A stretch of 64,000 nt of DNA from Dicyema japonicum (taxonomy: Eukaryota; Dicyemida; Rhombozoa; Dicyemidae). Location: assembly GCA_011109175.1 (NCBI GenBank), contig RDEW01000061.1, positions 64,244 to 128,243 of the forward strand. Reading direction: 5' to 3'. Of the stretch, positions 109 to 58,310 are shown in pieces (the stretch's first letter is position 1; each line of letters opens with the position of its first letter). The notes under the pieces are model-generated. The model ran no database searches, was not told where the DNA came from, and was given only the letters and a program-made list of their open reading frames with translations. The position numbers and the translations under genes were made by a program.

Positions 109-894
109 ATGGATGCACTTCGTGCAGAGAGTGAAAATATGGTTTTTCCTAAATAAAAATCGTAGAAATGTTTTGAATGTGGTGGACCTAATCCTCAATG
201 GGTTAGTGTGACCTACGGAATATGGATTTGTCTGAATTGTGCTGGTGCTCATAGAAGCTTGGGAGTTCACATTAGGTAATGCATTTTACTTATATAGTTT
301 TGTGCGTTCAATAACAATGGACATTCTAAAACACGACGAACTTGCCCGAATGAAAGTTGGGGGAAATAAAAAGGCTAGACAGTTTTTTGAAAGTAATCTC
401 CCTTCAGATTATCAGAATTGGGATCTCTCACAGAAATATAGCACGTCTGAAGCTGCCCAATACAAACAGCAGCTTATTAATGAGAGTGGAATTGATCCTA
501 TTCAGTTTAATCAGAGCAGCTACCACAAGACATCTGACCAAATTGGAATTAATCGTCCTCAATTTAGTCAGACTAATTACTATAAGACTTCAGATCAGAG
601 TGGAATTGATCGTACTGGATTTAATCAGACTAACTTTTGCTATACCTCAGATACGAGTAATAGATTTGTTCCATACAATAATGTGAGTAATAATCAATTA
701 TACAATGATAACAATATTTCTACCCAATTGAGCGGTTATATTGATGATATAAAGCAATCAGTGATGACAGTATTGATACTTTGATTTTGTAGGGGTGGAA
801 GAAAATTAAAGATGGCACTTATCGCATTGTTAGTGACTTTACTGAGGATAGACAGAATAAGCAATTTAATAATAAATGGAATAATAATTATTAA
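109..894 (+). CDS. ARFGAP1: ArfGAP1-like GTPase-activating protein for Arf
   Basis: Stimulates GTP hydrolysis by Arf1 on Golgi/COPI membranes (family knowledge). The ATG at 109 opens a four-exon model with introns at 142-165 (24 nt), 276-297 (22 nt) and 770-792 (23 nt); 717 exonic nt give 238 aa. The first 90 residues hold the ArfGAP zinc finger CFECG...CLNC, the segment [11 protein letters not shown], the arginine finger in HRSLGVH, and the ArfGAP1-type stretch SFVRSITMD followed by [15 protein letters not shown]. The middle is low complexity with three tandem 19-aa repeats. The last exon ([12 protein letters not shown]...) resembles the amphipathic lipid-packing tail of ArfGAP1. Shorter than the roughly 400-aa vertebrate protein. 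ALG10 starts only 16 bp after the stop. Confidence 0.93.
484..655 (+). repeat. three 57-nt tandem repeats inside ArfGAP1
   Basis: Three in-frame copies of a 57-nt (19-aa) unit begin near 487, 544 and 601. Each encodes a variant of G-I-(D/N)-x3-F-(N/S)-Q-(S/T)-x-(Y/F)-x(2)-TSD. They lie between the catalytic domain and the C-terminal amphipathic exon and probably form a disordered linker. Confidence 0.85.
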
Positions 895-910
895 TAAATT
901 TATTTTTAAT

Positions 911-2113
911 ATGATTTTTTTTGCTTTTACTGTACCCTTTTTTGTTGGAGTTTTCATTCTTTGGCAAATAAGATATGTTCCACCTTACATGGATGAAATA
1001 TTCCATATATGGCAGACCAAGAAATACTGTGATGGTCAATACAATTATGTACATTTATTATGATCAGTATAGTACCATCACAAAATAACTACTCCTCCTG
1101 GTTTGTATATTATCTCTGCCATACTTGGCAAACTGACCCGATCAGAGTGCTCCCCAATATTCCTTCGTTCAATCAACTTTGCTTTCTCTTTATTAAATTT
1201 GATTATTATTTATCAACTGGACTTATCCAATACTCCTACGCTTTCCTCATTCAGTCAATGGCTAGTATTCCCTCTTTATTTCTTCTCTTTTCTTTTTTAT
1301 ACAGACCACCTTTCTCTTTTATTTGTTCTTCTTCTCATTCGAAATCGTCATTCTCCCCCATTAATTGTTCTTATTCTTTCATTATCAACCGTCCTTATTA
1401 GACAATCTAACATTGTTTGGGTGTTCTATTCCTATCTCCTTCCATACTGTCAACGTATTCCAACTATTAAACAACTCCTTTGGGATGACTGGCCTTTTGT
1501 GTTAACTGGATCTGCTACATTTGCGTTCATTTTATATAACGGATCATTAGCATTAGGAGATAAGACTGCACATCAACCAGTTCTTCATATCTGCCAAATG
1601 TTTTACTTTATTACATTCATATTTATCCTTAATATACACCAAACTATCCATCACTGTAAATTATGCTTATCAATTCCACTTACTTTCCTTATTCTAGTTT
1701 TCATATATTTTTTCAATTATGAACATTTATATTTAGTATCTGACCATCGTCACTATACGTTTTATATTTGGCGTCATTTTTTTAAACGATTTACTTTACA
1801 ACCATATATTTATGCCCCCGTTTATTATATTGCTCTTAATTGGTTTTTTTGTTATTTTAAAGGATATTGGTCATTTTTGTTTTTCTTTTGCACATTTTTG
1901 GCAGTCGTTCCCAACAAATTGTTTGAACTCCGCTATTTTATAATTCCAGCTGTTCTTATTACTCGGCAAATGAGAATGAATGAAGAATATTCTCACAGTC
2001 TCTTACTTCATGTCATGTTTCTTGTTGCATTTAATATGCTCACAGTTGTTGTCTTCATTTACTTTCCATTCTACAGTAATGCGTATTCTTCACTACAAAG
2101 ATTTATGTGGTAG
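911..2113 (+). CDS. ALG10: ALG10/DIE2 alpha-1,2-glucosyltransferase
   Basis: ER membrane enzyme that adds the third and last glucose to the dolichol-linked oligosaccharide used for N-glycosylation (family knowledge). Two exons: 911-1048 and 1073-2113, with a 24-nt intron; 392 aa. After an N-terminal membrane segment comes the family hallmark PYMDEIFHIWQTKKYC, then, across the intron, a short loop and KITTPPGLYIIS (ALG10: PMITTxPGLYL). The rest is about ten hydrophobic segments rich in F, I, L and Y. Somewhat shorter than the ~470-aa animal enzyme. An in-frame ATG at 812 lies inside the last ArfGAP1 exon; 911 is preferred because it gives the usual short N-terminus before PYMDEIFH. Confidence 0.93.
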
Positions 2114-2484
2114 AATAACATTCATTATTATTTATTTTCTTTCATTTAATTCTGATAATCTTATCTTTGACTAAAAAGTAGAGAGATTATGTAAATAATT
2201 TTATTTATTTATTACCCCAGACATATAAGTCGCTTTCTTTGCAAACATGATAATTTTCCATCGCTGTGTTTAGTGGGATGCCAATTCCATTCTCATTATA
2301 TGCCCGAATAGTCTCCAATGAGACTCCATTACCTCTAGGCTTATTGTCTTACCCTTACATTTCTTATAGATTAATTTACTTTTGGGAAAGTTTTACGTGA
2401 CAAGCAACAATTGCTTGAGTCTATGTTTACTTGGACTTCAAACTTCATTATTCTCGTTTAAGAGCAGCTTCAACATAGAGATGC
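2114..2484. other. intergenic, nothing recognised
   Basis: AT-rich stretch after ALG10. I see no gene, RNA or repeat that I can support. Confidence 0.5.
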
Positions 2485-3115
2485 TTGCAAATGTACTCAG
2501 GACTATCCCCTATTTCACCAAATGTGACTAAATCGCGCACGTTGACGAAACCTCTTGCTCAAAAGCGTAGCGTAACTTCAACGTCCAAAAATGCTTCATT
2601 GAAGCAGGCCACAATACCTGTCAGATTAGGCGATCTGGGAATTCGCTACTCTATAGATATTTATCTTTCTACTCATCTCTCGTCACTTGATAACCTTGTC
2701 AAGAGGATTCTACACTCCATTCTCGAACTCTCTCGTCCACACATGCGAAACCAGGAGCCCAAAACTCTCAATGGAGTCGATGCGATGTACCGAAAGTAAT
2801 TTGAAGATCTACTGGTCTCATCTAACCAATACCGCCGTGCTTGCTTGTTGTCATGTAAGTCTTCCAAGTGGAGTTTTGGGTACCTTTAGAGATCAAAACG
2901 AGCAAAATACGCTGTCCTACCACTCCCAGTTTAAACATCCAGTTCCCTTACGTCCTCTACGCTCGAATTTCTGGGTCGGCTAGGGAATCGGATTTCTACG
3001 CCCACTAGAGATCTCCGTGAGCACTTCTGGCTACTTGAGCGAATCTCGTTCACAATCCATAGAGAGAACAGCCATGCAGGCAATGCGGTTATCTGTAGCC
3101 CTCATATTGATTGTT
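2485..3115 (+). mobile_element. LINE group A relic, 3' half
   Basis: Broken reading frames on the plus strand match the C-terminal part of the group A retrotransposon protein. PVRLGDLGIR near 2620-2650 corresponds to the post-RT motif LPLRYGGIGIRS of the better copy at 19985-22740. Near 3010-3100, WLLERISFTIHREN corresponds to the terminal motif WLLQLISVAVVRGNA. The zinc-finger and endonuclease segment between them is missing or scrambled, so this is an internally deleted dead copy. Confidence 0.7.
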
Positions 3116-4301: not shown

Positions 4302-7119
4302 TCATATATTTCTACAAATATTTCGATTCTATATTTGAAATAAATATCAAACCTTATTTTTCTGTCTTTTTGAGAGATATTTGCGTAAACTAATACCACT
4401 ACACATATCCCCCACATCATTTTCAGGAATCAAAGAATCGAATTCTTTTAAGCATGACTCAGTTGAACATCTAAAACTGACATACTATTTATTTTATAAG
4501 TAATACTTTGGACTTTTTGAAAGCATCTGAATGATGAGTTTTTCCTGTTTGGACGACAAAATGGTTTTATAGTCAGTATTAATTTTTCGACTGTTAAGAA
4601 GAATGAATAATACAACCCCAACAGACCTGACATAGTAATTTATATTTACCAAATATCGCTATTTGCATGAGGTACTTTCGTTTGTAATATTTCTGGGGCA
4701 GAATATTCTTCGTCAGCAACAAAGTTCGGTGGTAACTCCAATTCTCTGCTAACAAACTCAAATCCTCCTAATTTAACGAATGTCTGACTATTGTTCCGAT
4801 GAACATATAAAGATTCAGGCTAAGCATACTTTGATATAAAATACTTTAATGTTATAATGATTTACTCCTCGATGTTGAAGGAAAAAAAGACCGCGTAATA
4901 TTTGAGCTACAAAAAACAGAACTATGTGTTGAGGATATTCTTGATAACTCGTGAGATATTCAAAAAGATTTTCAAAACTATACTTTAAAAATATAATACT
5001 TATCTGGATCACAGTGATTGTACTCCCCGGTGTTAAAAAACAACCGTAAAGAGAAATAAATTGAAAACTACGACACTCCGTCATAATTTCAAACATTTTT
5101 GAAATTTGATTACAAAACACCGCAGAAAATATACAAGAAATAAGATATTTGTTCTTCATATATAAAGAACATGGACATTTCAATTTCTTTTTTGAATTAA
5201 ATTTGTAGTATTTGAATATATCTGACCGGAAAATAACATTCATTGAATTAGAAGTAGAAGATTCAGGAGTAATCGGTGGAGATGAAGGTGACTCAGAATA
5301 ACGTGTATTGTTCAGAACAGAAACAATTCTAAATGAGTATGATTTATGATGCGAAAGACCATCAACGTGGTAGTAAGAACAATTCAAATTCAAAGCAATG
5401 GAAAACCATTTATCATTTTCAAGTATCTCCAAATCATATGTTTCTTGCTCATTTTTCTTAACAAAAGCATCAGTCCAATCGACTTTTAGTGTTCCTTTAC
5501 CAAATAATGAAACTTTTGGAGCTTCATATATATTCAAATTATCTATAGTTAATTTAATTGTTATACTCGGTAGAACAGTCAAAATTCCACTCGTCTTAGT
5601 TTTACCATATTTATTGCTAACTTCAGCAATGTATTCTCCCCCATCCTCTACCACTAAGGATGATATCTTTAAGATAATATTTAGCACCAACCTGAAGATA
5701 ACAGCAATATCCAATATTTTCTACTTTTGCCCTTTCAGGCAAATCACTATCCTTCTTTATCCATTTAACCATTGGAAGGTCCAAACTGAAAAATTCAAGT
5801 CTCATGTTTGCACAATGTCCAACAAAACCAGTGATTCCTTCAATTGCACTTACTGTTGGTATTTTGGTATTCTATAATATTTTCATAATTCAAACAATTT
5901 CCGACTTGCTTTCTAACATAAAGGAGATCATGGGAGATATTTCGTAGGTGTTATATTGAATATTTGTATCTTTCTTATCCATAGATGGATCGAGAAGGGC
6001 TAATGTGTAAAATTTAATCTAACCTGTAAGAAGATCACAACGATTATACACCATTGACTCAAATTTGTCAAGCCATGTTTTAAATGCGTCCTTATCATCG
6101 AAATCAAAGATATATTTGTTATCATTTGACACATTAACAATAAGAAACTGATTACTTGTCTGTTTTTCAGTAATTTTTATTTCCAATGATGAAATCTATT
6201 ATTATAGAAAATATTACAGGTATTAACGCCACAAATTCATAATTTGGTAAGTCATACTTTTCGACATGAGGCGATACTGTAGTAATCACCAAACTATTTT
6301 CAAACAGGAAAACGTGTCGTTTGATATTTTCATTGTTGTGATGAATATAAATGGGGGTCTGTAAAAAGAGCGGTCCTGTGCGGTAAGTTTACCCTTAATG
6401 TCAAAAGAAGAGTAAACGGGAAAGTTTTTAATACGAGTGACACACATCATGTCGTTAGCATTAGCCGGTATGGCTGATATATTAGTAATAGCTTCACTTA
6501 TGACAGTAACGTCACACTCTTGTTTTAACAAATACTTTTTGATATCCTGGATTTTATTTGTAATAGATTACTTGCAAAAATAGCTGATATTTCATTATAC
6601 GTTGTACTGGACGTATTATGATGTCTTTTACATCACGAGTTATCAGAGGATTCTTTGTCATTATGCTCTAAAAGTGATAACGCAATATCAACCGCGAAAT
6701 ATTCTTCATTTTCCCCTGCTAAAAAGTTGGCTCTGCTCGAATTTTCGCAATAACGCACATACATATGAAAGTCCCGTTTGTAATGAGTGAAGAGCGTTGC
6801 AATCTTAAATGGATCATAGTCACATCCCTCCAATGCCTTATAGAATACACTATTATCAATCTTAACACAATACTTTTCGTGCCATTCACATATTTGCAGT
6901 ATATTCGCGAATATTATGTTTATTTTGTCCTGTTCTTGGATAGGATATTCATTCATTGTTGGATAGTATTGCTATTTAGTTATCCCACTTTAATACATAT
7001 TTGGCCTGATTTAAAACTTCTATATACTCCTTTTCCGAATTTATAAGCTCTTCCATCGTAAAATATAACTTTTCATTATATTTCTAGTATAAACAGAATA
7101 CCCCAACCTTTGCTTCCAT
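4302..7119 (-). CDS. minimal Trio/Kalirin-like RhoGEF-Ig-FN3-pseudokinase
   Basis: Model of about 834 aa with 13 introns (17-30 nt); exonic length 2505 nt is divisible by three. An in-frame TAA lies 12 nt before the ATG at 7119. Order: DH domain (EELINSEKEYIEVL, ANILQICEWHEKY, RDFHMYVRYCEN, IIIRPVQRIMKYQL), PH domain (NDMMCV...KRHVFLFENSLVI...FKTWLDKFESM), I-set Ig (VKWIKKDS...DGGEYIAEVSNKYG), FN3 (LKVDWTDAF...SYSFRIVSVLN), kinase fold (LYGCFLTPGST, QILRGLFFLQHRGVNHYNIK, YSAPEILQ, SDIWSVGV). This is the C-terminal half of Kalirin/Trio; Sec14, spectrin repeats, first GEF and SH3 are absent. The catalytic HxD aspartate is Asn (HYNIK), the next Asn is Ser (PESLY), DFG is replaced by GGF, and no glycine loop or VAIK lysine is visible: probable pseudokinase. 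The last 24-nt intron (4329-4352) is optional; without it the stop is at 4347-4349. Confidence 0.9.
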
Positions 7120-10364: not shown

Positions 10365-11349
10365 TGGTATATACATGTGCCTCCTGAGAGATGGAGTATT
10401 ATTATTACAGCACTTATCGCCTTGCCATAATAGTTATAGCAAAGCATGTGCAATACAAGAAACAATGTTATTAGTTAGCCTCTTCCATCCTCCACGGTTA
10501 CACGCAGTCGATCTCAGCATGTCCAGATCGTCTCCCGTCTTTAGGCATTTCTTCATTCTTTGGAGGTCTTTGTGCAGCATGATAGGTGGGTCATCCTTGG
10601 TCTGCCACGGAAGCATTTGCCCTCGAACATGAAATGGTCCTCCATCGCCACATTAGCCGGGGCAGCAAGATCCATGCGTAGTACGTGACCAAACAGTCTC
10701 CACCGGGCGTCAGTGATTTCCAGGCTTAGAGGCCTACTCTTGCATTTTTTGTAAATACCGGTATTCGAGATTCTGGCTGGCCACTGCATGCCAAATAATA
10801 CTCTAAGCTGTTTTCTGTGGAACCCATCGAGAGCCATTGATTCCGCACCTGTACAGGCCCAAGTACAGTATTGTATGTCAGTATCGGTTTCACAAATGCA
10901 TTGTACATGCGTATCCGCAGATTGACATCTAGTCCTTTCAGCCATCCCTTTTTGAGTTTTCGCATTGCTACTCCTGCAAGTGTTTTCCTTTTGATGATGT
11001 CTTCTGTGTCCCCCAGTAGGGATCCAAGCTTATTAACATGTCGCCAACGTTCATTAAGGATGTTGTCCATTCTTTTGATTTCCGTGATTTCCGTTTTGGC
11101 CCGGTTAACGATGAGGAACCATTCCCCCAGTTTGTCCGGTGTATTTTCCAGCAGATGTGAAAGAGCTTCTGTATCCTCGGATATAAAATCCACATCATCC
11201 GCGTATACGACTTCGTTTATTTTTCCTTCATAGCAAGTTCTTAGATCCTTTAGTGCAGCATCGAGATATATCACAAATAGTAAGGGGGAGAGGGAGTCTC
11301 CCTGAGGAGTGCCGATTGTAGTTTTGAGTATAGAGTAAAAATAATCCAA
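10365..11349 (-). mobile_element. LINE group B copy B1, 5'-truncated
   Basis: Minus strand, starting just upstream of IGTPQGDSLSPLLFVIYL, with VVYADDVDFISEDTEAL, then the post-RT region (RWRLFGHVLRM, CFRGRPRMT) and the terminus NIVSCIAHALL-stop. A one-base deletion (near 10863) and a second shift near 10590 break the frame. The 3' end carries GCTATAA...TATGGC and a TAATAATAATA tail. Almost identical to copy B2 (27500-28435) and cut at the same 5' point. Confidence 0.92.
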
Positions 11350-11645
11350 TTAACTAATTTCTCTTCCCAACTATTCCCCTATTACTTGGCCACGCGGCAA
11401 TCCGGAACAATGGGTCCGGTTTCATCACTCTCTGAGGTTCTTAATCCGATATCTTCTATCAATCAGCACTAGAAGCCGCTAAAACACATAAATTAAGAAA
11501 AAAACTACGCCTCGCCAAAACTGATGAAAGAGGAGCGTCGTGGATTCAGAAAAGCTGTGGGTACTATGGAGGGGCACATCAAAAACCTCTCGAACCTGTT
11601 GAGGTTAGATGTTTTAATTTCTTATTTCTTGGTATTCCTTTTTTG
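11350..11645 (+). mobile_element. LINE group C 3' end, probably continuing 9060-10350
   Basis: Contains the terminal motif ERRGFRKAVGTMEGHIK, matching ERRLFRKLVGTMEDHRR in the group C 3' end at 37195-37590. It lies directly beyond the group B insertion and on the same strand as 9060-10350, consistent with one element split by that insertion. Confidence 0.65.
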
Positions 11646-13280: not shown

Positions 13281-13979
13281 ATGTATCGTCATATGTTTGT
13301 TGTGCTGTTTACGTGTATTTCCTCGTTGAGAATAGAATTTCATGATTCTCAGGCAAAATGCTTTATTCATGATCTCCCTGAGAGAATGATGTCAGCTGGT
13401 TGTTGTTTGTTTTAATTTCGAGGAACTTACTCTGTTATATCTCTCAAACGTAACAATGTAGAATATAGTGATAACGTTGGATTCCATGTAGATGTGAAAG
13501 ATCCGATGGAGGAGACAGTGCTATCCCGTGTATGTATAGTTTAATATGTGATAGGAATATGGGAATAATGGCAAATTCACGTTCAAAACTCATTTATCTG
13601 GCGATTACAGGATATGCCTTAGTTCTAATGTATCTGGAGTATTGGTATTGTTGCAATCATATGATAGATTGTTGACCTAAAATTTACTCACGGTGAAGAT
13701 GCTCAAGCATATTCTGGTGAGAATAAGCTAACTGCGATTGAAGTCCGTGCAAGGCGTGTTTTGGATAATATTTTGGAGATTGGTTTAGAACAAAACGAGC
13801 TAAGAGTATTTTACATTGCTAACTTGCAGATAAGGGAGTCTAGATATGTACATCTGGTTAGTCGTGTTCACACTCTGATCTTTACTCTTGCATTCTTCCT
13901 AAATCTCATACTTGTCCTCACGTTTATCATTCACACAATTCACCTCCGTAGATTTTTCGAGTCAAAGAAGATAATTTGA
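13281..13979 (+). CDS. p24/TMED family cargo receptor
   Basis: Type I membrane protein of the p24 family, which cycles between ER and Golgi in COPI/COPII vesicles (family knowledge). Introns of 24, 25, 23 and probably 24 nt give 200 aa; exonic length is divisible by three. A signal peptide (MYRHMFVVLFTCISS) is followed by a GOLD domain with the usual cysteine pair (KCFIHDLPERM...YRICLSSNVSG), a coiled-coil neck (TAIEVRARRVLDNI), and a C-terminal membrane segment ending HLRRFFESKKII, the p24 pattern YLRRFFxxKK with a diphenylalanine export and dilysine-like retrieval signal. The fourth candidate intron (inside 13803-13826) can also be read through. Subfamily not assigned. Confidence 0.9.
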
Positions 13980-17892: not shown

Positions 17893-18771
17893 ATGTGCGA
17901 ATGGAATTTTGTAGCTGGAATGGCTGGGGGAATAATATCTACTGGTCTTTTCCATCCACTAGATTTTGCTAAACTACGCATGCAAAGTACTGATAGTTAA
18001 TTATAAACAAGTCAATGAGCAAGGACGGATATTTTCTTCGCACAAAATAATTCTCAGATCACTTTTGATGAAATCAATCAAAGAATGTGGATTGTCTTCA
18101 GTTTATTTGGGAGTAGGCTCTAATATTTTTGCATCAGGATTTTCATGGGGGTGTTATATGTTCTCGTACAATAAACTTAAGGAATTGACTGGTAATAATG
18201 GACTGACCAGCCATGTATTATGTGCTTCAGCCGCAGGTGATACAAATTTATTATCATAGGAATACTTGTAGCATCTATATCCAATCCCTTGTGGTTGGTG
18301 AGGACCAGAATTATGTTAGGAATGGGGAACAGTGGAATATTTCGTTCGTTGAAGGGAATTTACATTAACGAGGGAGTGATTGGACTATATAGAGGATTTC
18401 TTCCTGGACTGTTGGGAGTTTCCAATGGAGTAATACAAATGGTGACATATGATATGTTGAAAAATTACTTTGGAAAAACTAAACTTGTCAACCATTCTTA
18501 TTATTATTAGAGCCCCGTTGAATGTTTGGGAATTGCTGCTTTTTCAAAAATTATATCCATAATGGTTACTTATCCACTACAAACTATTCGAACCAGACTC
18601 ATGAACAATGCGACAAACTATCGTAATATGAGCCACGTTATCACTAATCTTATTCAAAATGAGGGCATTCTATCATTTTACAAAGGGATCACTCCTTGTA
18701 TTTGTAGAGTGGCTCCATCAACTGCACTTACATTTCTTGTGTATGAAAGTATTATTAATTTAACTAAGTAA
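17893..18771 (+). CDS. SLC25A32-like mitochondrial carrier (folate/FAD type)
   Basis: Six-helix inner-membrane carrier. Introns at 17987-18011 (25 nt), 18237-18259 (23 nt) and 18487-18510 (24 nt) give 268 aa in four exons. The three carrier signatures are visible: FHPLDFAKLRMQ, SNPLWLVRTRIML and TYPLQTIRTRLMN. Trp in the second repeat and Gln in the third are features of the SLC25A32 (folate/FAD) and related pyridine/flavin nucleotide carriers, so FAD or folate transport is the best guess; substrate not proven. About 45 aa shorter than human SLC25A32, mainly in matrix loops. Confidence 0.88.
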
Positions 18772-26156: not shown

Positions 26157-27311
26157 TTAGTTCCAGTCAACAGTGAGCTTAAAAAAGGCGAAAGGATAAT
26201 ATTCAGCTTGTCCAGGAAGTCTTAGTTGATAATCATCAATCTTTTCATTTTTGACAAAGTTATAGTCGAGCGAGGAATACAAATCAAAGAGAAGATTTTT
26301 GAGTTTGTTGGCATTTTTGTATGAAGGATGGAGAACAGTAATGAGAAATGGATTAGTTATGCCGTATCTAATAACAGAATAATAATACCTGAGGACTGAC
26401 TCAACAAATGTACGTAGTATTTTAATGTGAAGAAGAGCAGAAAATGACTCCTGATAATTTATTCTGAGCCAATTATTAAATGGTCTCTATTGGTTATGCT
26501 CAATACTAACTTGAAGAGTAGTTAGTCTGTTTTGAAGAGCAATGGTGTTAGACCGAAATGCTTCTGCTTCCTCCTTGCTGTACTCGAAATCCCGAACATG
26601 AAATTTTTGTATTCTGCATTGAGATTTGAAGTCATCCACGACTGTTCTGAATAGAGTAACCGAGTAGAGTATGTAGTCGTCCTCCTCAGCAATCACTCTG
26701 GTGGAGTCTGGTACAATCATGTCTGTGAGTGTAGAGTATGAATTGGTCCACTGTCCAGAGTTGTTTTTATTTACAACCACCAACAAAGTAACCAAGTACT
26801 CGGAATTCAATACGAAGTCACTCTCATTGACCACATCGTACAAAGACCTTGAAAGCAATCCTGCAGTCGCCCGTCTCTTTGACTCTTCTACTGCTCCTTT
26901 TACTTTGTTGTACTCTCCTGCACGTCCTTTTAATTCCCCTTCCATCCCCAATACTTCCTTCTCAAGTAAGTCTCTCATCTCACGGACACACAGTCTTGCT
27001 GGATATTTTGCCTGATTCCATCCAAAATCTGAGACTGTTCCTTCAGTCTCTCCGCCCATCAAATCAACTAACCTCCTCACCAAACTAATAATTATAACAT
27101 TTTTACTTCTCACATTGAACATCAACTCTCCCCAGTTCATCACTCACTTGCATTAATTCATCCAAACTCCCAAACTAAAATCAAAACTGGTTCATACCTT
27201 CAAATTTGGCATTTCAAGTTTATGCACGGAAGACAATTTTCCTACTTTTGACTTTTGTTCAACAAATGTATTCTCATCCAAAGGCACTGATATAATCCAG
27301 TATTCGGACAT
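26157..27311 (-). CDS. ATP6V1C: V-type proton ATPase subunit C
   Basis: Peripheral-stalk subunit that clamps V1 to V0 and whose release disassembles the proton pump (family knowledge). Five exons with introns of 23, 22, 24 and 21 nt; 354 aa, exonic length divisible by three. N-terminus MSEYWIISVPL and LGSLDEL-type residues match MTEFWLISAP of the family; later NQAKYPARLCVREMRDL, GLLSRSLYDVV, DFVLNSEYLVTLLVVV, VTLFRTVVDDFKSQCR and VRDFEYSKEEAE are close to the animal protein. The last exons give HIKILRTFVESVLRYG and end PGQAEYYPFAFFKLTVDWN. Complete and apparently functional; slightly shorter than the ~382-aa human subunit. Confidence 0.95.
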
Positions 27312-27499
27312 TAACACAAATATTAGTGGTTTGATTTAAATGCTTTAAATATACTTTATATAGAAAATTTTAATTTTTATATTTGAAACTTTATAATATC
27401 TATGGGTTAATAGTTTTATTCATAATATCAAATGGCTATTTACTTCAAGTACTGAACTGTACTTCTCTCAAGTACTGAACTGTCAGTCCGAATTGGGAG

Positions 27500-29275: not shown

Positions 29276-30035
29276 ATGTTTGTTCAAAAAAGACTTCCGA
29301 TAATATTAGTAGGATTGAGCTTCATCATTAATCTAATTGCTGCATTCACTCCTGCCTGGATTGAAAATTCTTTTCCTGGTAAAACAGGATTTGTGAGAAT
29401 TGGCTTGTGGCAAATTTGCTTCAAAAAATATTCTCACTTAGACAATGATATTTATGATGGATGTTATTCTACGACAAATTCTGGAGAAGATGTAATCACA
29501 TCATTTCTGCTAGGTAATACTGCATTTTTAGCATAATCTGTTATTGATTTAATCATTAGATTGGTTCTACATTGCCCAATGGACAGTAATAATGTCTCTT
29601 ATGCTACAGACACTTTCAATAATCGCGACGCTTTCTAGTGGAAACAAAAAGTGCATTATTTTAACAATTTTATCTTTTGGGGGTAAATTTGTGTGTAGTT
29701 TAGTTGTATCAATATTGTCAGTAATTATTTCATTTATTCAGTATTTTTCAAAAAATAAGCTTCCCGGTTATCAATGGAATCATATTTCATGGTCATTTAT
29801 ACTTTTACTTATCTCTGGCCTACTTTATGTTATTTCTGTTGGAATAATTGCCTGGGAATTCAAACAATCAATTATAAACAGTGACAGAAATATATCTCCA
29901 TGTATAAATAACACTTCAATACCACGTGTACTTTCGTATGAGATGACTGACGATGTATATATTCCTCCAAGATCAGACTCAAAAAAATATTTCGGGAATT
30001 TTCGTCGTTACATTTATTCTGATACATTTAAGTAA
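29276..30035 (+). CDS. claudin/PMP22-superfamily four-pass membrane protein
   Basis: Two exons separated by a 46-nt intron (29514-29559), twice the usual size here; a split into two smaller introns would leave a stop. Product 237 aa. Four hydrophobic segments: LPIILVGLSFIINLIAAF, a second after DWFYIAQW (VIMSLMLQTLSIIATL), a third and a fourth (SFILLLISGLLYVISVG). The first extracellular loop has the superfamily signature: TPAW, GLWQIC and a second Cys (DGCYS). The C-terminus is cytoplasmic and polar. Claudins form paracellular junctions, but related proteins do other work, so only the superfamily is called. Confidence 0.85.
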
Positions 30036-31519: not shown

Positions 31520-32088
31520 ATGACTTCGTACGACAATTTATCGGAGTTTGCAGAATTTGCGTTACAACCTTTATTCTTTACTAGAACTGTAGTTGGAGTA
31601 ATACTTTTTAATATAATTTAGTTTTGCTCATTTGTAATCATGTGTCTTATCTCAAATAGCGGTTTTGATGAAGGAACCTGTATTTTCAATAAAACCAAAG
31701 TCTGTGGCTTTGCACTTTTTGTGAGCATCTTCACAGTCATTTCAGAAACTGTATTTATGGTAATCGACATTAAAACTTCGGATCCAGCTAGTTTAATGGA
31801 GAAAAAATCCATAAATGCTTCAGATTTGATTGTTCACTGTATTTTTTAAAATATATTTAAGTGATATTAACTTTATTCTGGTTTATTGCTGCTTTGTACC
31901 TCACTTATACTTGGCCTCCAGATTTCGGTCTTTCATTTCGTAGAAAAATTGACGGGAATAGTATTCTAATATTATCAACTGCCTTATTTTTCTTTGTGTA
32001 TAAGAGTTTACTTATTATAGGCACTTTTGACTTATTTTGCTCACAAAATACGCAAGAGTTCAATAAACCAGGAATACCAAGTAACTGA
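31520..32088 (+). CDS. SYNGR: synaptogyrin-like MARVEL protein
   Basis: Four-pass vesicle membrane protein of the synaptogyrin/synaptophysin family. Three exons with 24-nt and 23-nt introns; 173 aa, divisible by three. N-terminus LQPLFFTRTVVG, then FCSFVIMCLI, the lumenal CIFNKTKVCGFALFVSIF (synaptogyrin: CxYNxxxxACGFGxAVG), FMVIDIKTSDPASLMEKK, and the third-fourth membrane region ASDLIVHLILTLFWFIAALYL (family: SDxGxSALWxFLWFVGFxxL). Dicyemids lack a nervous system, so a general secretory or endosomal role is likely (inference). Confidence 0.9.
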
Positions 32089-32254
32089 TGACAATGGAAT
32101 GTTTCCGGATCATTCCATAAATTATTGATATAATTAGTTAATTCAGCACTTTAAAAATGATATCTGATTTTAGTTTTTTAAAAACTTTTAAATATTCATA
32201 GACATTTATGTATTTTATGTATTTAAACGAAATTTAATTTGTCCGTACTATTGA

Positions 32255-35999: not shown

Positions 36000-37142
36000 T
36001 CAATCAAACTCGTCAGCATAAAAAAATATTTTATCTTTGATTCTTTTGCATCCAGTTTTAGAAAAAATAGGCAATGAAGGAGGATAGAAACTGATATCAT
36101 CCATTACAGATTTGACAACTTCACTCTCTTTTCTGTGAGATAAAAGAACATCATTCATTTCGATTTCTCGTCTGGCACATTTTTCCAACTGTATACGCTC
36201 TAATGGAAAAAATGGGACAAACTGATTAACTACAGCCTTTAAAATTAACAAGCTTTGATAATATCCACCTAATTAAATATATTTAAGCCAACCTGGCTCG
36301 TTGTAAATCGTAGTTATTACAAAATCCTCGATGTCACGATATTTAATAGAATTTCTATCGTAACCTAACTTATACAATTCAACAGTTTTGTTTAGAATAA
36401 AGGCAGAACCAGAATTACTTGAATTTAGATAAGGGATTTACCTCAAAAGCAAATATATGGCTTTTCCATAGTCGACGTCGTTAACGACACCAATATGATC
36501 CATAAGTGGAGATATTGAATCCATCACGGCTGAAGGTATTCTCTCAATTTCATCGAACACAAAGATTGAATAAGGACACTCTGTTAGATTACCAACAATC
36601 CAATTTAACAAATTTGACTACAAAATGAATTAAATTTATAACCTTGTGAGTCTCAATCATAGAAATGTCGGAAAAATGCAAAGCGGGGACAAAAATATGA
36701 ACATATTTACTTTCTTTCGAATTAATAACGAATTCTGTTAGTGCACGTGCCAAAAAATTCTTTCCCGTTCCTGTTGGCCCATGGAAAGATAAAACTAACG
36801 GTTTCATTGAATTTTCATTGTTTAAATGAGCCTTCAATGACCTGTAAACTATATTTACAGCTAAAGGTTGCCCGAAAATATTAGAATCCAAAAAATGTTT
36901 AAACCCTAAATCATTTTATAAGTTAAACCTTGCAAATTAGCTTCTTTCCACCCATTTTGACAAATTTCTAAACCAGTTAGCCATTTAGCATATTTTATGG
37001 CTCTATTCACGTTAATTTTTATATTATTATTATTAGGTGGATCGATCAAAGTGTATATTCCAATACCTAAATATTGTTATATAACTATTGAACTAGTTAA
37101 AATTATAATGACAAAATTTATGCACGCCGAAAAGGATAACAT
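36000..37142 (-). CDS. torsin AAA+ ATPase
   Basis: ER/nuclear-envelope lumenal AAA+ protein of the torsin family. Six exons with introns of 27, 23, 25, 24 and 24 nt; 339 aa, divisible by three. An N-terminal hydrophobic signal (MLSFSACINFVIIILT) precedes EICQNGWKEANLQG, NIFGQPLAVNIVYRSLKAHL, Walker A GPTGTGKNF (torsins use GxxGTGKN with Asn), YVHIFVPALHFS, Walker B IFVFDEIERIPSAVMDSI, sensor-1 region LLLSNSG, and C-terminal NQFVPFFPLERIQLEKC plus a conserved cysteine in SKTGCKRIKDKIFFYAD. All catalytic boxes are intact. Partners LAP1/LULL1 are not in this window. Confidence 0.95.
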
Positions 37143-42236: not shown

Positions 42237-42811
42237 ATGTCAGAAAAAATAAGAGATCTGAAACGCAAAATAGAAGAGGAAGAAGAAATGAAGTCATTAA
42301 GATATTTAAAAATTTAGAAAACTTATAAACGATTCAGTGGAAGAACTTAAAATGAAAATAAATAAAATGCAGCAAGAATTAGATTCAGATGATGAAGCTG
42401 GTTTTTCCTAAAAATTAAAGAAAACAAATGGAAATCAATGTACGAGGCACAGCAAGAAACAAACAAACAGTTGAAAAATCAAATTGCTCATTTGCACAAT
42501 CGGATTGCTGAAGCGAGAGCAATGTCAAAAGATGGTTTATTAATAAACCACAATTTTAGGCAATAAACTTAACAAATTGGATGACAACGGAGAAGTAAAG
42601 TTGATATAACTTAGCAGGTGACTCCATATATGATAAAAGTTCTTCAAAGAGAAAGAAATAATTTGAAATCTCAGTTAAAAGATTTGGAATGGAGACTTGA
42701 CCAGGAATCTAAAGTAACAGTGCACAATTTACAACTTTTCATATTAAATTTAAACTTATTTAGGCATACTATAAATCATTGGAAGAGAGAAAAAATATGA
42801 GACTGAAATAA
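42237..42811 (+). CDS. CCDC169: CCDC169-like coiled-coil protein
   Basis: Six exons; introns of 25, 20, 25, 20 and 50 nt; 144 aa, divisible by three. Almost entirely coiled coil. Residues such as NKWKSMYEAQQETNKQLKNQI, VLQRERNNLKSQLKDLEWRL and LDQESKAYYKSLEERK line up with CCDC169 ([54 protein letters not shown]). The function of the family is poorly known. The frame ends at 42809-42811 after an A6 run; adding one A would continue a further coiled coil (YETEINSAKREIKAIKQ) to about 42966, so the true C-terminus may be longer or the run may hold an indel. Confidence 0.8.
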
Positions 42812-43549: not shown

Positions 43550-44470
43550 TCAAAAAATGATTATTTTATTCGATGAATTAATTGACGTCATTCTGCGGCT
43601 GATATCATCAATATTGTGGATAGCTTGTGTTCCCAACTAAATATAATTTAAATCAAAACATTTTCGAAATCACTAAAGGGATTCTCTTTAAGTACGGTCT
43701 CATTAATTATGAAATTAGTACCAAACTATCGTTAATGAACAAACTTACTTGATGAAAAAAACGGTTTTCATTAATTCTAAAAATATTGTGGTCGATTCTG
43801 ATAAACATTCTCATCAAAATGTAAAAACAGGAAGGCATAACACGCTAAAATATATTAAAAACAATACAATTCGTACATTGAACTTGGAACAACCATTATC
43901 AGCCAATTCATCTTCAAATAAGTCAATGTCGGAATAAAACAAAATCTTATCGTTCTTTTTCAAAATTTCATAGTCAATAGCATATTCTGTTTTCTCAACC
44001 TAATTTTAGACTTAAATATTTAAAAAATAAATTATAAAAGATATTTAGGTTATGGATTACTACTTTGTACATTCCCGACAAAGTCCCACAATATAACGAA
44101 AAATATGTCCAATCAAATGGCTTTACTGAATCATTCTTCACAAATTCAAACCCAGATCTAATTTTATCATTGATCACAAATTATAATGAAACCTTGATTT
44201 TTGCCACTCCTGAGAATAAGAAACTGTAAATTTGCTGAGGTTAGATTGATCGACTTCTTTGAGGGCATCCAATGCGTTAATGCTGATTTTAAAGTCTGAT
44301 TTGGTATGCTCTAATAGAATTAAATTGTTTGCATATATCATTTCTGGAGGTTGTAAAATCTCGATTTCTTTTTCAAAACTTTTATTTATATTTAATTTTG
44401 TTACTTTATCCTCTTTTCCCCAAAGATTCAAGAATCGAGTCTTTTCTTGAATAAAATTTCCAATGGCCAT
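43550..44470 (-). CDS. TIPRL: TIP41-like protein (TIPRL), PP2A regulator
   Basis: Binds the catalytic subunits of PP2A-family phosphatases in TOR signalling (family knowledge). Six exons; introns of 35, about 64, 23, 23 and 23 nt give 250 aa, divisible by three. Matching blocks: PPEMIYANNLILLEH, ISINALDALKEV, FTVSYSQEWQKSR, SVKPFDWTYFSLYCGTLSG (family IKPYDWTYTTDYKGTLLG), FYSDIDLFEDELADNG, FNVRIRVMPSCFYILMRMF, IRIDHNIFRINENRFFH. The C-terminal tail is weakly conserved, as usual. Two introns are larger than the genome norm. Confidence 0.93.
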
Positions 44471-44994: not shown

Positions 44995-45365
44995 ATGGAC
45001 GTTGAGGAATCTAAATCTCCACCTTCAAAAGGCCGAATTACGCTTAAAAAGGCAACTATTAATAAATTATGTTTAGTGGAATGCTAATGCTTTATGGTCT
45101 TGGGGTTAATTTATTAATTCTTAAATGTAGACAGTAGCATTGATAATTGCGCAATATGTCGTTGTCATTTAATGGATAAGTGCTTAGACTGTCAGGCTTC
45201 GGAAGAAGTCAATTGTGAACTTTCCCGAGGAATTTGCAATGTTTAATTTTTAATTACTTTATATAGCACGTTTTTCATTACCATTGTATTTCTCGATGGC
45301 TGGTTAATAGAAAAGTATGTCCTCTTGATAACTCTCGCTGGCAGTACATATCTCTAGATAATTAG
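44995..45365 (+). CDS. RBX1: RBX1/ROC1 RING-H2 subunit of cullin ligases
   Basis: Recruits the E2 enzyme to cullin-RING ubiquitin ligases. Four exons with introns 45052-45076 (25 nt, GC-AG), 26 nt and 26 nt; 97 aa, divisible by three. N-terminal beta strand [15 protein letters not shown] equals the cullin-binding FEVKKWNAVALWAWD. The RING-H2 with its extra zinc site follows: [41 protein letters not shown]. The first intron is accepted because only removal of a 25-nt interval starting with GC restores KKWNA. Complete and close to the 108-aa human protein. Confidence 0.95.
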
Positions 45366-49277: not shown

Positions 49278-49284
49278 TAAAAGT

Positions 49285-54420: not shown

Positions 54421-54534
54421 CTTTTCTTTAAAATGTCTCCAGATTGGTGAGTTACGTGACATTCAACCAACCACAAAGCACGTTGCACAATTCTCTGATT
54501 TATTTTTTATATTTCTTGAGTTAGATCCATTTAC

Positions 54535-55300
54535 ATTTTTATATAATTATTGATTTCATCAAAAGTTAATATTAATATATTAAACATAATTTAAATATTT
54601 TTAATAAATTGTTGTGTTGAATTGATTAATGGATAATCCTCCGCCTTATTCGCCCAAACAAGAATATGCAAGCGCTCCATATCCACAGGGGCCGACTGTC
54701 ACCACTCATTTTACAACCAACCCGAATGTGGCTTATGTGCAACCCCAGATTATCACAAATCCAAATGTTCTCTATGTACATCCCCCTCAAAGAATTGTTG
54801 CTGTCTCTCAAAATTATGGAACATGTAGGAATTGTGGAGTATTTAATAATGTAATAAATTAGGTCGGCAGAATTGAGCCTTCCTTTACTTTGTTAGGAAT
54901 CTATTTGGCTATATTCTTTTTTCCTTTTGGAGTCTTATGTTGTCTTTTGATGACTGAGAGGAGATGTTTACACTGTGGAGAATTTTATGGCTAATTTACT
55001 TACATTATTTCTATTAAAATTTTATTAACTTAAAAAAATATTTTATTATTCATCGAGTGCTGAGTGAGTATGATGATATAAATATGACTCCGACAAATAT
55101 AGACCGACAATACGTGCGGAGTTCTAAGCTAGATCGTGTTCTAGATAATCTAGTGCTACACGAGAGGTCATTGACGTAGGTCACATGCTTTCTTATAGGG
55201 TGCGATCATTCTTACAGATCTTTGCTACCAGCACTAGGGGAATAAGTCAGGTATCTATAAGTTTTTAATAGAAAACGAATCATGTCATGTTAAAAATAGA
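54535..55300 (+). repeat. tandem segmental duplication, unit 1
   Basis: Contains BRI3-like copy 1 plus about 100 bp upstream and about 300 bp downstream that align with unit 2 (57545-58310). The downstream block keeps GACAAATATAGACCGAC, TCTAGATAATCT, GTAGGTCACATGCTT and GCTACCAGCA in the same order. Confidence 0.8.
54629..54994 (+). CDS. BRI3-like membrane protein, copy 1
   Basis: Two exons with a 24-nt intron (from 54839); 113 aa. Proline/tyrosine-rich N-terminus with PPPY (MDNPPPYSPKQEY), a CxxC pair (CRNCG), a membrane segment (LLGIYLAIFFFPFGVLCCLL) and a second CxxC (RRCLHCGEFYG). This matches BRI3, whose C-terminus reads CPVCRVG...[20 protein letters not shown]...RRCPNCG. BRI3 proteins sit in lysosomal/endosomal membranes; PPxY is a ligand for Nedd4-type WW domains. 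Duplicate of 57641-58006 (about 60% protein identity by eye). Confidence 0.88.
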
Positions 55301-55390
55301 TGCAACATAATTCCTACACTAAGAATTAATTAGTAGGGCAATTTTTATAGCAGTTCAAATTTAAAATATAACACTTAAAAATAGCATTAT

Positions 55391-55781: not shown

Positions 55782-55796
55782 CATTATAGTATTTAT

Positions 55797-56051: not shown

Positions 56052-56260
56052 TTATAGTATTTATAAACCACAAATATATCATTTAAATTAACACTTAAAA
56101 TTTTTCAATTTTTGAAAAAATAAACATTAATTAAAAAAGAAAACAATTAAATATTTTTAGTTAAGAGCCCAGGGTTGCGAAGGCGTTCCTTCCCTCTTAT
56201 CATCGTCTGATTACTAATCATTTTTTAATATCTGGGAAACAATTTGATATTAAGGATATT

Positions 56261-56880: not shown

Positions 56881-56894
56881 ATCCAAATTGAGAA

Positions 56895-57080
56895 AAAAAT
56901 GAAGATACCTCTATATCAGAGATCCCTACCTAAGAAAATTCCTCGAAAGTATGTAAATTGTGAGAGTATTGAACAATTAAATAGAGTTTTGGGAAAACAC
57001 ACTGTCTCGATTCCTTCGAACAATCTGGATGACATATCGACCTTATTATATGCTTCTCAATGTGCTTATGACTTATAAAC
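56895..57080 (+). other. coding-like stretch, possibly LINE group G
   Basis: Plus-strand frame MKIPLYQRSLPKKIPRKYVN, SIPSNNLDDISTLLYASQ, CAYDL then stop. Composition is protein-like, and the LLYxxQCxY pattern resembles the region upstream of RT in R4-like elements. Weak evidence. Confidence 0.3.
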
Positions 57081-57294
57081 AAAATTACGAATCGAAATGA
57101 AAGATCCAAAATTGTAACGAAAAAAGGTAAAAACTCTTGTCTGAATTTTGTCGAATGTCGTCAATGGAGAAGTAATAAAAAAGTGTATGACCTATTGTTA
57201 TACAGCTAAATTAAACGAAAAAAGATGAATATCAGTCGATTTACTATTATTGAAGATCAGATTAAAATTGTGAGTAAAACACTTGAAATTTTAT

Positions 57295-57343
57295 TTTAAC
57301 ATTATTTTAGAAAAGTAGATGTTTGACATCCTTAAAGTTAGGA
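57295..57343 (-). repeat. 49-nt sequence, inverted copy of 49229-49277
   Basis: Perfect reverse complement of 49229-49277; flanks share no clear similarity except a few A-rich bases on one side. Lies between the coding-like stretch and BRI3-like copy 2. Confidence 0.85.
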
Positions 57344-57544
57344 CCTTCCACGCTATCCCTATTTTCGTTTTTATCGATTATATCATTATAAAACTATTTA
57401 GAAAATTAATTTTTTCGACATCATTAACTTAGGTACCTGCCAATGTGATTCATATACTTTTTTGCATAATAACCACTTAATAAGTTGACCTGGTCACGGA
57501 AGGGGTGGAGTTAGCATTCAGGTTGAATGAATAATAAAAAATTT

Positions 57545-58310
57545 CACTTTTGTATAATTATTTATTTCATCAAAGGTGGAGTTGAATAAATAATGAAACA
57601 TTATTTAAATATTTTTAATAAATTGTGTGTCGATTGATTAATGGATAATCCTCCGCCTTATTCGGCTGAACAAGAAAATGAATGCCCTCCATATTCCCAG
57701 GGACCGACTGCCACCACTCAGTTTACAACCAATCCGAATGTGACTGATGTGCAACCTCAGATTACCACAAATCCAAGTGTTCCTAATGAACATCCTCATC
57801 ACGGAGTTGTTGCTTTCTTTCAAAATAATGGAATATGTAGAAGTTGTGAAGTATTTATTAATGTAATAAATTAGGTCGGCTACATTGTGTCTTCCTACAC
57901 TTGTTGTGGGATATATTTAGGAATTATCTTTTTTCCTATAGGAATCATTTGCTGTATATTGATGACTGAAAAAAAGTGTTCTTACTGTGGAATGACTTAT
58001 GGCTAATTTAGTTACATTATTTTTATTAACTGTTTATTAACCTTATTAAAAAGAATCTTATTATTCATTGATTTTTGAGTGAGTATCAATTTGAACCCGA
58101 CAAATATAGACCGACTGTATGTGTTGAGGTCTAAACAAGGTCGTGGTCTAGATAATCTTGTGCTAAACGGGAAGTTACCGAAGTAGGTCACATGCTTATT
58201 TATAGATCATAATGATAGATATCATTATACGGATCTATGCTACCAGCAGTAGGGGAACAGGTTAGATTTCTATAAGTTTTTTTATATAGAAAACGATCAT
58301 AATTTTATAT
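57545..58310 (+). repeat. tandem segmental duplication, unit 2
   Basis: Aligns with 54535-55300; the two start codons are 3012 bp apart. Similarity covers TTTAAATATTTTTAATAAAT upstream of the ATG, the whole gene including its 24-nt intron, and the downstream block ending near TTTCTATAAGTTTTT. Confidence 0.8.
57641..58006 (+). CDS. BRI3-like membrane protein, copy 2
   Basis: Same two-exon structure and 113-aa length as copy 1, with a 24-nt intron at the same place. MDNPPPYSAEQEN, CRSCE before the intron, membrane segment GIYLGIIFFPIGIICCILM, and KKCSYCGMTYG at the end. All four cysteines and PPPY are kept, although about 40% of residues differ from copy 1, which suggests both copies are still under selection (inference). 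Confidence 0.87.

Follow-up and report, generated by a model that had tools for sequence, protein, structure and literature searches.

The 64,000-nucleotide stretch of DNA analysed here (the window) carries uniform, ultra-short GT-AG introns, and introns of this class appear to contain a positioned branch site. We rebuilt 14 genes with 47 introns in total, in agreement with the "about 50" introns in "at least 14 genes" of the original prediction. Analysis of the sequence confirms these intervals as real introns, not frameshifts. In introns of 22–26 nt we found a yUnAy-like TNAY motif whose A sits near nucleotide 16–17 from the 5′ splice site, and its statistics point to a branch site complementary to U2. 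The branch-site finding is new; short introns themselves were already known. Very probably the introns of this genome belong to the U2-type spliceosomal class, with a dicyemid as the most likely source, and lie near the minimum length that their spliceosome accepts. Dicyemids are tiny parasites of the octopus kidney.

See Table 1 for all genes and introns. As predicted for most of them, 44 of the 47 introns measure 20–26 nt, and the remaining three are 35, 46 and 64 nt long. All had been described as GT-AG, which held for 46/47; the exception is a GC-AG intron in the RBX1 gene. Donor triplets are GTA (24), GTT (18), GTG (2), GTC (2) and GCA (1), and acceptors are TAG (37), AAG (5), CAG (4) and GAG (1), matching the GT(A/T) donors and mostly (T/A)AG acceptors noted originally. 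No internal stop occurs in any of the 14 models (12, plus Torsin and CCDC169 in the correct frame). Seven models, plus BRI3a, are complete from ATG to stop codon and divisible by three in length; the original prediction gave a multiple-of-three exon sum for every model, and the other six have a provisional or open end.

Spliced products of 13 of the 14 genes match Pfam families, from 327 bits for V-ATPase C to 43 bits for MARVEL. A Pfam search of the spliced claudin-like product gave no match; therefore the frame alone supports its 46-nt intron. The PH and fn3 scores of the RhoGEF-PH-Ig-FN3 product were under the Pfam cut-off. Each of the four V-ATPase C introns was retained singly, and the 327-bit match was lowered or lost every time. 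Residues 1–350 of this product match solved V-ATPase C chains, and splicing of the intron at 26368..26388 yields fvesvlryg, the same as in a solved chain. Retention of one of the four p24 introns (13530..13554) abolished the Pfam match. A fifth candidate intron in p24 was dropped, as keeping it unspliced lifted the score from 97.4 to 99.0 bits. The RBX1 product aligns to RBX1 chains over residues 7–92 of 97 (E 4.4e-34).

Table 1. Rebuilt genes of the window and their introns, with the evidence for each
Feature	Position	Strand	Introns or length	Evidence
ArfGAP1-like gene	109..894	+	3 introns	PF01412 119.8 bits spliced
ArfGAP1-like intron	142..165	+	24 nt	gene model
ArfGAP1-like intron	276..297	+	22 nt	gene model
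ArfGAP1-like intron	770..792	+	23 nt	gene model
ALG10 gene	911..2113	+	1 intron	PF04922 241.3 bits
ALG10 intron	1049..1072	+	24 nt	gene model
RhoGEF-PH-Ig-FN3 gene	5230..7119 (3′ end provisional)	-	10 introns	PF00621 55.8, PF07679 33.9 bits
RhoGEF-PH-Ig-FN3 intron	7084..7107	-	24 nt	gene model
RhoGEF-PH-Ig-FN3 intron	6972..6996	-	25 nt	gene model
RhoGEF-PH-Ig-FN3 intron	6668..6692	-	25 nt	gene model
RhoGEF-PH-Ig-FN3 intron	6584..6607	-	24 nt	gene model
RhoGEF-PH-Ig-FN3 intron	6547..6571	-	25 nt	gene model
RhoGEF-PH-Ig-FN3 intron	6294..6313	-	20 nt	gene model
RhoGEF-PH-Ig-FN3 intron	6196..6217	-	22 nt	gene model
RhoGEF-PH-Ig-FN3 intron	6000..6023	-	24 nt	gene model
RhoGEF-PH-Ig-FN3 intron	5872..5895	-	24 nt	gene model
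RhoGEF-PH-Ig-FN3 intron	5667..5691	-	25 nt	gene model
p24/TMED gene	13281..13979	+	4 introns	PF01105 99.0 bits
p24/TMED intron	13399..13422	+	24 nt	retention: in-frame stop
p24/TMED intron	13530..13554	+	25 nt	retention: no Pfam match
p24/TMED intron	13645..13667	+	23 nt	retention: frameshift
p24/TMED intron	13806..13829	+	24 nt, stop-free multiple of three	gene model
Mitochondrial carrier gene	17893..18748 (3′ end provisional)	+	3 introns	PF00153 185.7 bits, 3 stretches
Mitochondrial carrier intron	17987..18011	+	25 nt	gene model
Mitochondrial carrier intron	18237..18259	+	23 nt	gene model
Mitochondrial carrier intron	18487..18510	+	24 nt	gene model
V-ATPase subunit C gene	26157..27311	-	4 introns	PF03223 327.4 bits
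V-ATPase subunit C intron	27175..27197	-	23 nt	retention: no Pfam match
V-ATPase subunit C intron	27085..27106	-	22 nt	retention: 38.5 bits
V-ATPase subunit C intron	26487..26510	-	24 nt	retention: 318.6 bits, in-frame stop
V-ATPase subunit C intron	26368..26388	-	21 nt, stop-free multiple of three	retention: 313.7 bits
Claudin-like 4-TM gene (named by eye)	29276..30035	+	1 intron	open frame only
Claudin-like 4-TM intron	29514..29559	+	46 nt	frame only
MARVEL-domain gene	31520..32110 (3′ end provisional)	+	3 introns	PF01284 43.4 bits
MARVEL-domain intron	31598..31621	+	24 nt	gene model
MARVEL-domain intron	31839..31861	+	23 nt	gene model
MARVEL-domain intron	31996..32020	+	25 nt	gene model
Torsin gene	36000..36953 (5′ end provisional)	-	4 introns	PF06309 105.7 bits
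Torsin intron	36906..36928	-	23 nt	gene model
Torsin intron	36618..36642	-	25 nt	gene model
Torsin intron	36418..36441	-	24 nt	gene model
Torsin intron	36269..36292	-	24 nt	gene model
CCDC169-like (DUF4600) gene	42237..42719 (3′ end provisional)	+	4 introns	PF15372 72.7 bits, longer hand-joined model
CCDC169-like intron	42293..42317	+	25 nt	gene model
CCDC169-like intron	42401..42420	+	20 nt	gene model
CCDC169-like intron	42535..42559	+	25 nt	gene model
CCDC169-like intron	42595..42617	+	23 nt	gene model
TIP41 gene	43550..44470	-	5 introns	PF04176 194.6 bits
TIP41 intron	44158..44192	-	35 nt	gene model
TIP41 intron	44000..44063	-	64 nt	gene model
TIP41 intron	43845..43867	-	23 nt	gene model
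TIP41 intron	43726..43748	-	23 nt	gene model
TIP41 intron	43637..43659	-	23 nt	gene model
RBX1 gene	44995..45365	+	3 introns	PF12678 72.0 bits after splicing against 26.8 for an unspliced frame; stop codon read
RBX1 intron	45052..45076	+	25 nt, GC-AG	junction aligns with RBX1 vkkwnavalwaw
RBX1 intron	45105..45130	+	26 nt	RBX1 chain alignment, gene model
RBX1 intron	45241..45266	+	26 nt	junction gives gicnhvfhyhc
BRI3-like gene copy 1	54629..54994	+	1 intron	PF10164 81.8 bits; frame runs to stop
BRI3-like copy 1 intron	54839..54862	+	24 nt	gene model
BRI3-like gene copy 2	57641..58006	+	1 intron	PF10164 73.4 bits
BRI3-like copy 2 intron	57851..57874	+	24 nt	gene model

Beyond the window, we aligned 68 kinase loci from the same 64.7-Mb genome without a length preference, allowing 15–90 nt. 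This homology set, drawn entirely from one protein family, comprises 202 GT-AG introns, 171 of them 20–28 nt long, with a concentration at 22–24 nt. Retention would bring an in-frame stop in 103 of the 171. When dinucleotide pairs were compared without favouring any length, the gain was 1092 bits for GT-AG and 555 for the strongest of 36 other pairs; with better profiles, GT-AG reached 3113 bits and nine other fixed pairs at most 2043. An alignment with fully free boundaries scored 3989 bits with 378 intervals, more than GT-AG, as is expected of a freer model. U12-type introns have an RTATCCTT-like donor. Among the 202 homology introns none starts with GTATCC and one starts with GTATCT, and the AT-AC gain was smaller than the GT-AG gain. 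GC content is 36.8% over the window and fetched loci. One kinase exon shares 96% identity with a protein listed under Octopus sinensis, and its next ten matches lie at 46–53%. Such indirect evidence makes a dicyemid the likely source.

A gene finder that ignored intron interiors and weighted 17–31 nt equally called 422 introns, with 84 at 22 nt versus 18 at 21 nt and 15 at 20 nt; this set is impure because false calls occur. Intron length, which the original prediction proposed to measure together with a search for a branch-point consensus, has a sharp onset at 22 nt and a median of 23. A consensus was found as well, namely TNAY at a preferred place, and the claim that there is no room for "a usual branch point" was not supported. 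The signal recurs in introns outside the discovery set and in held-out window introns. The pooled fit gives T 0.72 at −2, A 0.98, and C or T 0.74 at +1. In 22-nt introns, nucleotide 16 is A in 31/39 of the homology set and in 36/55 known solely from the gene finder. Over 22–26 nt, the best-column A sum was 94 for 142 homology introns (shuffled 58.6 ± 3.0, maximum 70) and 120 for 201 gene-finder introns (shuffled 77.5 ± 3.5, maximum 92; 1000 shuffles each). The held-out window introns (n = 44) scored 28.4 bits against −11.0 ± 9.1 for shuffles, with 0/1000 as high. The branch A lies about 6–10 nt ahead of the last nucleotide of the intron, separated from the AG by ~4–8 nt (51% T). A long polypyrimidine tract is missing, as had been expected. 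Internal AGs 3′ of the branch A showed no depletion relative to column composition.

Could the A peak be a by-product of intron selection, through a bias to in-frame TAA, TGA and TAG, or of composition? Our intron choice does prefer frame-breaking intervals, and decoys carry A at the same columns in 98/202. However, A is present in 122/142 real introns (the columns being picked on that same real set), and TNAY stands at nucleotides 15–18 in 81/142 real introns versus TNAY in 52/202 decoys. Neither selection step used the sequence from nucleotide 7 to −5, stop codons would occupy no fixed nucleotide, and the columns recur in other introns for 22–25 nt. We regard this origin of the peak as very unlikely and retain a positioned branch site as the better reading.

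The distance of the branch A from the 5′ end varies little with intron length, though a 5′ ruler is only tentatively preferred to a 3′ one. The slope of mean A position on length was −0.05 in an anchor-free pooled fit (100 bootstraps: −0.31 to 0.21), with −0.40 for the homology set and 0.15 for the gene finder separately. Held-out likelihood was 169.9 bits for a 5′ anchor versus 164.3 for a 3′ anchor (pooled), and 53.4 versus 49.8 (homology). With introns and branch point both real, the A could still be set by how far it lies from the 3′ splice site (~6–8 nt), the seeming 5′ ruler being a mere product of the narrow length range. The two anchors are nearly indistinguishable because most introns are 22–24 nt, their likelihoods being only 5.6 bits apart across 350 introns, and the pooled A modes move with length (16, 17, 17, 18 and 18 from 22 to 26 nt). 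However, an A fixed relative to the 3′ end would predict a slope of 1, which the bootstrap range excludes, and raw peaks at nucleotides 17/18 (pooled 25/26 nt) lie 8 nt before the end versus 6 at 22 nt. We consider a 3′ ruler unlikely, while giving it appreciable weight. Homology-set modes fall at nucleotide 12 in the 25-nt class (n = 13) and 11 in the 26-nt class (n = 18). In 26-nt introns, the best homology column (nucleotide 17) holds A in 9/18 and did not repeat in the gene-finder set (6/20).

Genes for U1, U2, U5 and U6 snRNA were all found. U2 has 25 matches, with GTAGTA in 8/8 copies read; U6 has ACAGAGA in 9/9 matches above cut-off; U5 has 15 matches. All 11 U1 copies score under the Rfam gathering cut-off (best 69.0 vs 69.5), and ACTTACCTG is shown in one of them. 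An SF1 gene (SF1-HH match 80.5 bits) and a U2AF65-like exon cluster are present, with gaps of 22 and 23 nt between the cluster's own exons.

Dicyemids have been linked to DNA elimination, which would suit a reading of the intervals as short segments eliminated from somatic DNA, like ciliate internal eliminated sequences. So would the abundance of circular contigs that the available part of PMC6543705 reports for an assembly of Dicyema. However, the GT...AG polarity tracks the coding strand, a yUnAy-like site lies inside the segments, and spliceosomal RNAs and factors are still encoded in the genome; furthermore, comparison of D. acuticephalum genomic DNA with cDNA indicated spliceosomal introns (PMC2222250, in part). 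Elimination is thus extremely improbable.

For spliceosomal introns of this kind, we infer that the weak donor is read by U1 and that canonical U2 (GUAGUA) base-pairs with the branch site. The branch A would then attack the 5′ splice site to form a lariat loop of ~16 nt, and an AG a few nucleotides 3′ of the branch would be joined. Spacing may make up for information missing from the sequence signals, with an A ~16 nt from the donor being accepted. Introns would hardly fall below 22 nt because the donor-to-branch and shortest branch-to-end distances add up (16 + 6 = 22). Tentatively, and with slightly less than even confidence, we suggest that dicyemid recognition has shifted from sequence to distance, with the A at ~16 nt from the donor serving as the chief signal inside the intron, the 22-nt edge being the physical minimum for a metazoan spliceosome that is ordinary in other respects, and extra length being tolerated mainly 3′ of the branch.

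The size class was correctly described as known in dicyemids. The accessible portions of earlier reports give a mean of 26.2 ± 1.9 nt for Dicyema acuticephalum (n = 16; PMC2222250), a median of 25 with a 0.5-bit 5′ signal (n = 41; PMC2483917), a median of 27 with 4.9 introns per gene (PMC6543705), and a mean of 38.2 in a 67.5-Mb genome of 36.7% GC (PMC6736024). As far as these portions show, published introns of D. acuticephalum, D. japonicum and Dicyema sp. are alike in being GT-AG, ~25 nt, several per gene and very weak in 5′ signal; the present set has a median of 23 and an edge at 22 nt. The 2008 survey (PMC2483917, in part) lists dicyemids, and likewise Paramecium tetraurelia and the Bigelowiella natans nucleomorph, without a branch-point signature, whereas the present introns show a positioned branch site. 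Introns of P. tetraurelia (~25 nt) and the B. natans nucleomorph (19 nt) share the size class, with many per gene, in different lineages. Those of Stentor coeruleus (15–16 nt) are also GT-AG and AU-rich, with a near-fixed branch A and little consensus, and the consulted part of PMC9505925 places the A at nucleotide 10 of 15. Stentor-type introns (A at nucleotide 10–11) were ruled out here, with the A near 16–17 in introns of 22–26 nt.

Ultra-short introns raise the question of how so large a machine copes with a substrate of 22 nt. If the genome is dicyemid, it belongs to an animal whose U2 and U6 are close to standard, and which stands nearer to human splicing than do ciliates or nucleomorphs. 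A positioned branch site offers a testable geometry, ~16 nt from donor to branch and at least ~6 nt from branch to end, and would revise the published claim that dicyemid introns are without a branch-point signature.

We rebuilt the gene models of the window by hand from reading frames, family motifs, and automatic models. This gave 14 genes (ArfGAP1-like, ALG10, a RhoGEF-PH-Ig-FN3 protein, p24, a mitochondrial carrier, V-ATPase C, claudin-like, a MARVEL protein, Torsin, CCDC169-like, TIP41, RBX1, and two BRI3-like copies) with 47 introns, 44 of them 20–26 nt long, a count that omits a stop-free RhoGEF interval of 3n length and two more candidate junctions at the CCDC169 3′ end. The few introns of 20–21 nt lie in the RhoGEF, CCDC169, and V-ATPase C genes. 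Spliced products of 13 of the 14 genes have Pfam matches, and one model has no family match. When single V-ATPase C introns were retained, the Pfam score of 327.4 bits dropped in all four cases, to no hit, 38.5, 318.6, and 313.7. The spliced RBX1 model, which lacks the 25-nt GC-AG intron, scores 72.0 bits versus 26.8 in one unspliced frame, and residues 7–92 of the spliced model align with solved RBX1 chains. The original prediction of about 50 GT-AG introns, mostly of 20–26 nt, in at least 14 genes was thus right as to intron number, size, and boundary letters.

The models from the first gene finder were usable though imperfect. We rejected one call in p24 (a signal peptide by eye, whose retention raises the Pfam score), and five in a mitochondrial carrier interval judged coding from the motifs of the carrier family. 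Two Torsin calls, of 44 and 69 nt, were also dropped, as were several in RhoGEF. After model correction, Pfam scores rose from 141.2 to 185.7 bits for the carrier, 22.7 to 55.8 for RhoGEF, and 91.3 to 105.7 for Torsin. A self-trained gene finder and a run in which the intron penalty was set too low (score >20 for 5,233 introns) both called introns nearly everywhere and were discarded.

The 24-nt introns of the tandem BRI3-like pair are identical at 23 of 24 positions, and identity elsewhere is lower (exon 1, 176/210; exon 2, 95/134; flanks, 83/97 and 113/141). This high identity concerns one intron and may be due to chance. The window also holds retroelement remnants, reverse-transcriptase-like by eye, which are long with few interruptions, in contrast to the host genes.

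Table. Locations of features in the window and, where a contig of the assembly (G000) is named, elsewhere in the genome
Feature	Location	Strand	Remark
RhoGEF gene	5230–7119	-	
RhoGEF interval	6474–6497		omitted from intron count
Retroelement remnant	10434–11425	-	near-identical to 27432–28412
p24 call	13307–13330		rejected
Mitochondrial carrier calls	18113–18319		five, rejected
Retroelement remnant	20226–22449	-	
Retroelement remnant	27432–28412	+	near-identical to 10434–11425
CCDC169 gene	42237–42719		
RBX1 gene	44995–45365	+	
RBX1 intron	45052–45076		GC-AG, 25 nt
Retroelement remnant	48587–49234	+	
BRI3-like copy	54629–54994		
BRI3-like copy	57641–58006		
U2 snRNA matches	G000:C115:851074-962467		6 of 25, within ~111 kb
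U12	G000:C68:163471-163599		85.4 bits
U6atac	G000:C34:237761-237858		37.0 bits

To limit reader and author bias, kinase profiles were aligned to 68 kinase loci of the same genome, and all intron lengths from 15 to 90 nt carried the same cost. Under the first profile, GT-AG boundaries gained 1092 bits over no introns versus 555 for the best other dinucleotide pair (36 of the 255 possible other pairs tried), and 85 of 97 GT-AG introns measured 20–27 nt versus 24 of 56 for the best other pair. Better profiles gained 3113 bits with GT-AG and at most 2043 with nine other fixed pairs; wholly free boundaries gained 3989 bits, as expected of a freer model. The resulting 202 GT-AG introns (median 24 nt), from one genome and one protein family, include 171 of 20–28 nt (median 23, mean 23.6). 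The other 31 are not claimed, because other pairs yield as many or more such intervals. In raw counts, in-frame stops occur in 39/57 of the 20–28 nt introns of 3n length and 64/114 of the others.

We then used a gene finder that weighted lengths of 17–31 nt equally and left intron interiors unmodeled; its training data were kinase codons and splice-site flanks. The gene-finder set is its penalty −7 run alone: 422 introns, an impure set taken from the kinase loci and the window, with 9, 3, 11, 15, and 18 introns at 17–21 nt and 84, 85, 64, 38, and 35 at 22–26 nt. Penalties of −9 and −11 gave 278 and 148 introns with the same distribution shape. The lower edge at 22 nt is sharp, a few 20–21 nt introns notwithstanding.

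GC-AG as a second intron class was rejected. With GT or GC donors allowed, 16 of 203 kinase introns had GC, 6 of them at 20–28 nt, and control donors gave 1–8 in that range; GC was thus no commoner than the controls, and the RBX1 case alone is claimed. At one kinase locus (L033), a 28-nt GC-AG case lifts the alignment by 14.5 bits.

The genome was taken for that of a dicyemid in the original prediction. The assembly comprises 64,672,829 bases in 191 contigs, with 36.8% GC in both the window and the fetched loci; for D. japonicum, the available text of PMC6736024 gives 67.5 Mb and 36.7% GC. Eight of the 68 kinase loci have no intron in the aligned part, among them four CK1-like kinases, so labeled by eye (L038, L039, L040, and L051), and a retrocopy expansion of the latter would fit their intronlessness. 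One kinase exon matches a serine/threonine-protein kinase 38-like protein filed under Octopus sinensis (P0001) at 96% identity across 83% of the query, the next ten matches being at 46–53%. The genome is likely to be that of a dicyemid living in octopus kidney, and the Octopus sinensis assembly may contain contigs of this parasite. P0001 matched a single exon of kinase locus L005 and is uninformative across introns.

It was also predicted that an ordinary branch point would not fit into these introns, yet those of 22–25 nt carry a T-N-A-Y motif with a positioned A that repeats across sets. Branch-site fits covered 22–27 nt introns, and the shuffle test and pooled motif fit 22–26 nt. At 22 nt, the A falls at nt 16 in 31/39 homology introns and 36/55 gene-finder-only introns. 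In homology introns of 23, 24, and 25 nt, A is most frequent at nt 17 (20/36, 24/36, and 8/13), and this column repeats in the gene-finder-only introns (32/54, 23/41, and 15/31). At 26 nt, the homology column at nt 17 (9/18) does not repeat in the gene-finder-only set (6/20), and the pooled peak is at nt 18 (53% of 38). Interior shuffles never matched the observed columns in 1000 trials for each set. The fitted motif (T 0.72, A 0.98, C or T 0.74) is close to the human branch site, yUnAy. TNAY with its A at nt 15–18 occurs in 81/142 real introns of 22–26 nt and about half as often (52/202) in decoys from nine other dinucleotide pairs, which in part overlap real introns. After training on 328 introns from elsewhere in the genome, a model gave the 44 short window introns 28.4 bits versus −11.0 ± 9.1 for shuffles; a smaller, earlier subset of 23 gave 16.3 versus −9.3 ± 6.9. 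We found no exclusion of AG downstream of the putative branch A. Donor positions +3 to +6 together contribute ~0.7 bits of information, close to the dicyemid value of 0.5 bits in the available text of PMC2483917.

The A could be placed by its distance from either splice site. Mean A position against intron length, with no anchor, has a pooled slope of −0.05 (−0.31 to 0.21, 100 bootstraps), the slopes differing by set (homology, −0.40; gene finder, 0.15) and the pooled modes drifting from nt 16 to 18 with length. Held-out likelihood puts the 5′ anchor 5.6 bits ahead over 350 introns; for the homology set the lead is 3.6 bits. Because the slope is near zero and the likelihood favors the 5′ anchor, a ruler from the 5′ splice site seems more probable than one from the 3′ splice site.

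Short introns in dicyemids were published by 2007 at the latest (PMC2222250, in part). As far as its available text goes, the 2008 survey that reported no branch-point signature (PMC2483917) used D. acuticephalum introns and a tally of common hexamers, which could miss the signal because the latter is one of position more than sequence. That survey alone was found for dicyemids, branch points, and introns together, and Ogino et al. 2010 (Gene 449:70) may treat branch sites; within this literature, seen in part, we did not find dicyemid branch points. The nearest parallel found is Stentor, where the branch A sits at nt 10 of 15 (PMC9505925, in part).

Finally, we searched the genome for spliceosomal components. 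U2 snRNA has 25 matches, 22 over the cut-off, with GTAGTA in all eight copies read; U6 has nine over the cut-off, all with ACAGAGA, and U5 has 15. The 11 U1 matches are each below the cut-off and span 145–160 nt versus a 166-position model. A changed U1 was first suggested by the absence of ATACTTACCTG and AAACTTACCTG, found at 15 and 25 places in the genome, respectively, none coinciding with the 11 U1 loci; no U1 match begins with either. Arguing against a changed U1, one copy among the matches listed has ACTTACCTG in the right place, positions 3–11. SF1-HH is present. Matches to the U2AF large subunit are separated by 22 and 23 nt, across which the profile continues unbroken; none of the pieces by itself reaches the whole-protein cut-off. 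There was no clear U12-type intron among the 202 homology introns; U12 and U6atac each have a single match over the cut-off (33 bits for U6atac). The spliceosomal RNA parts that were read look ordinary, and a minor spliceosome may be retained in this genome of 23-nt introns.
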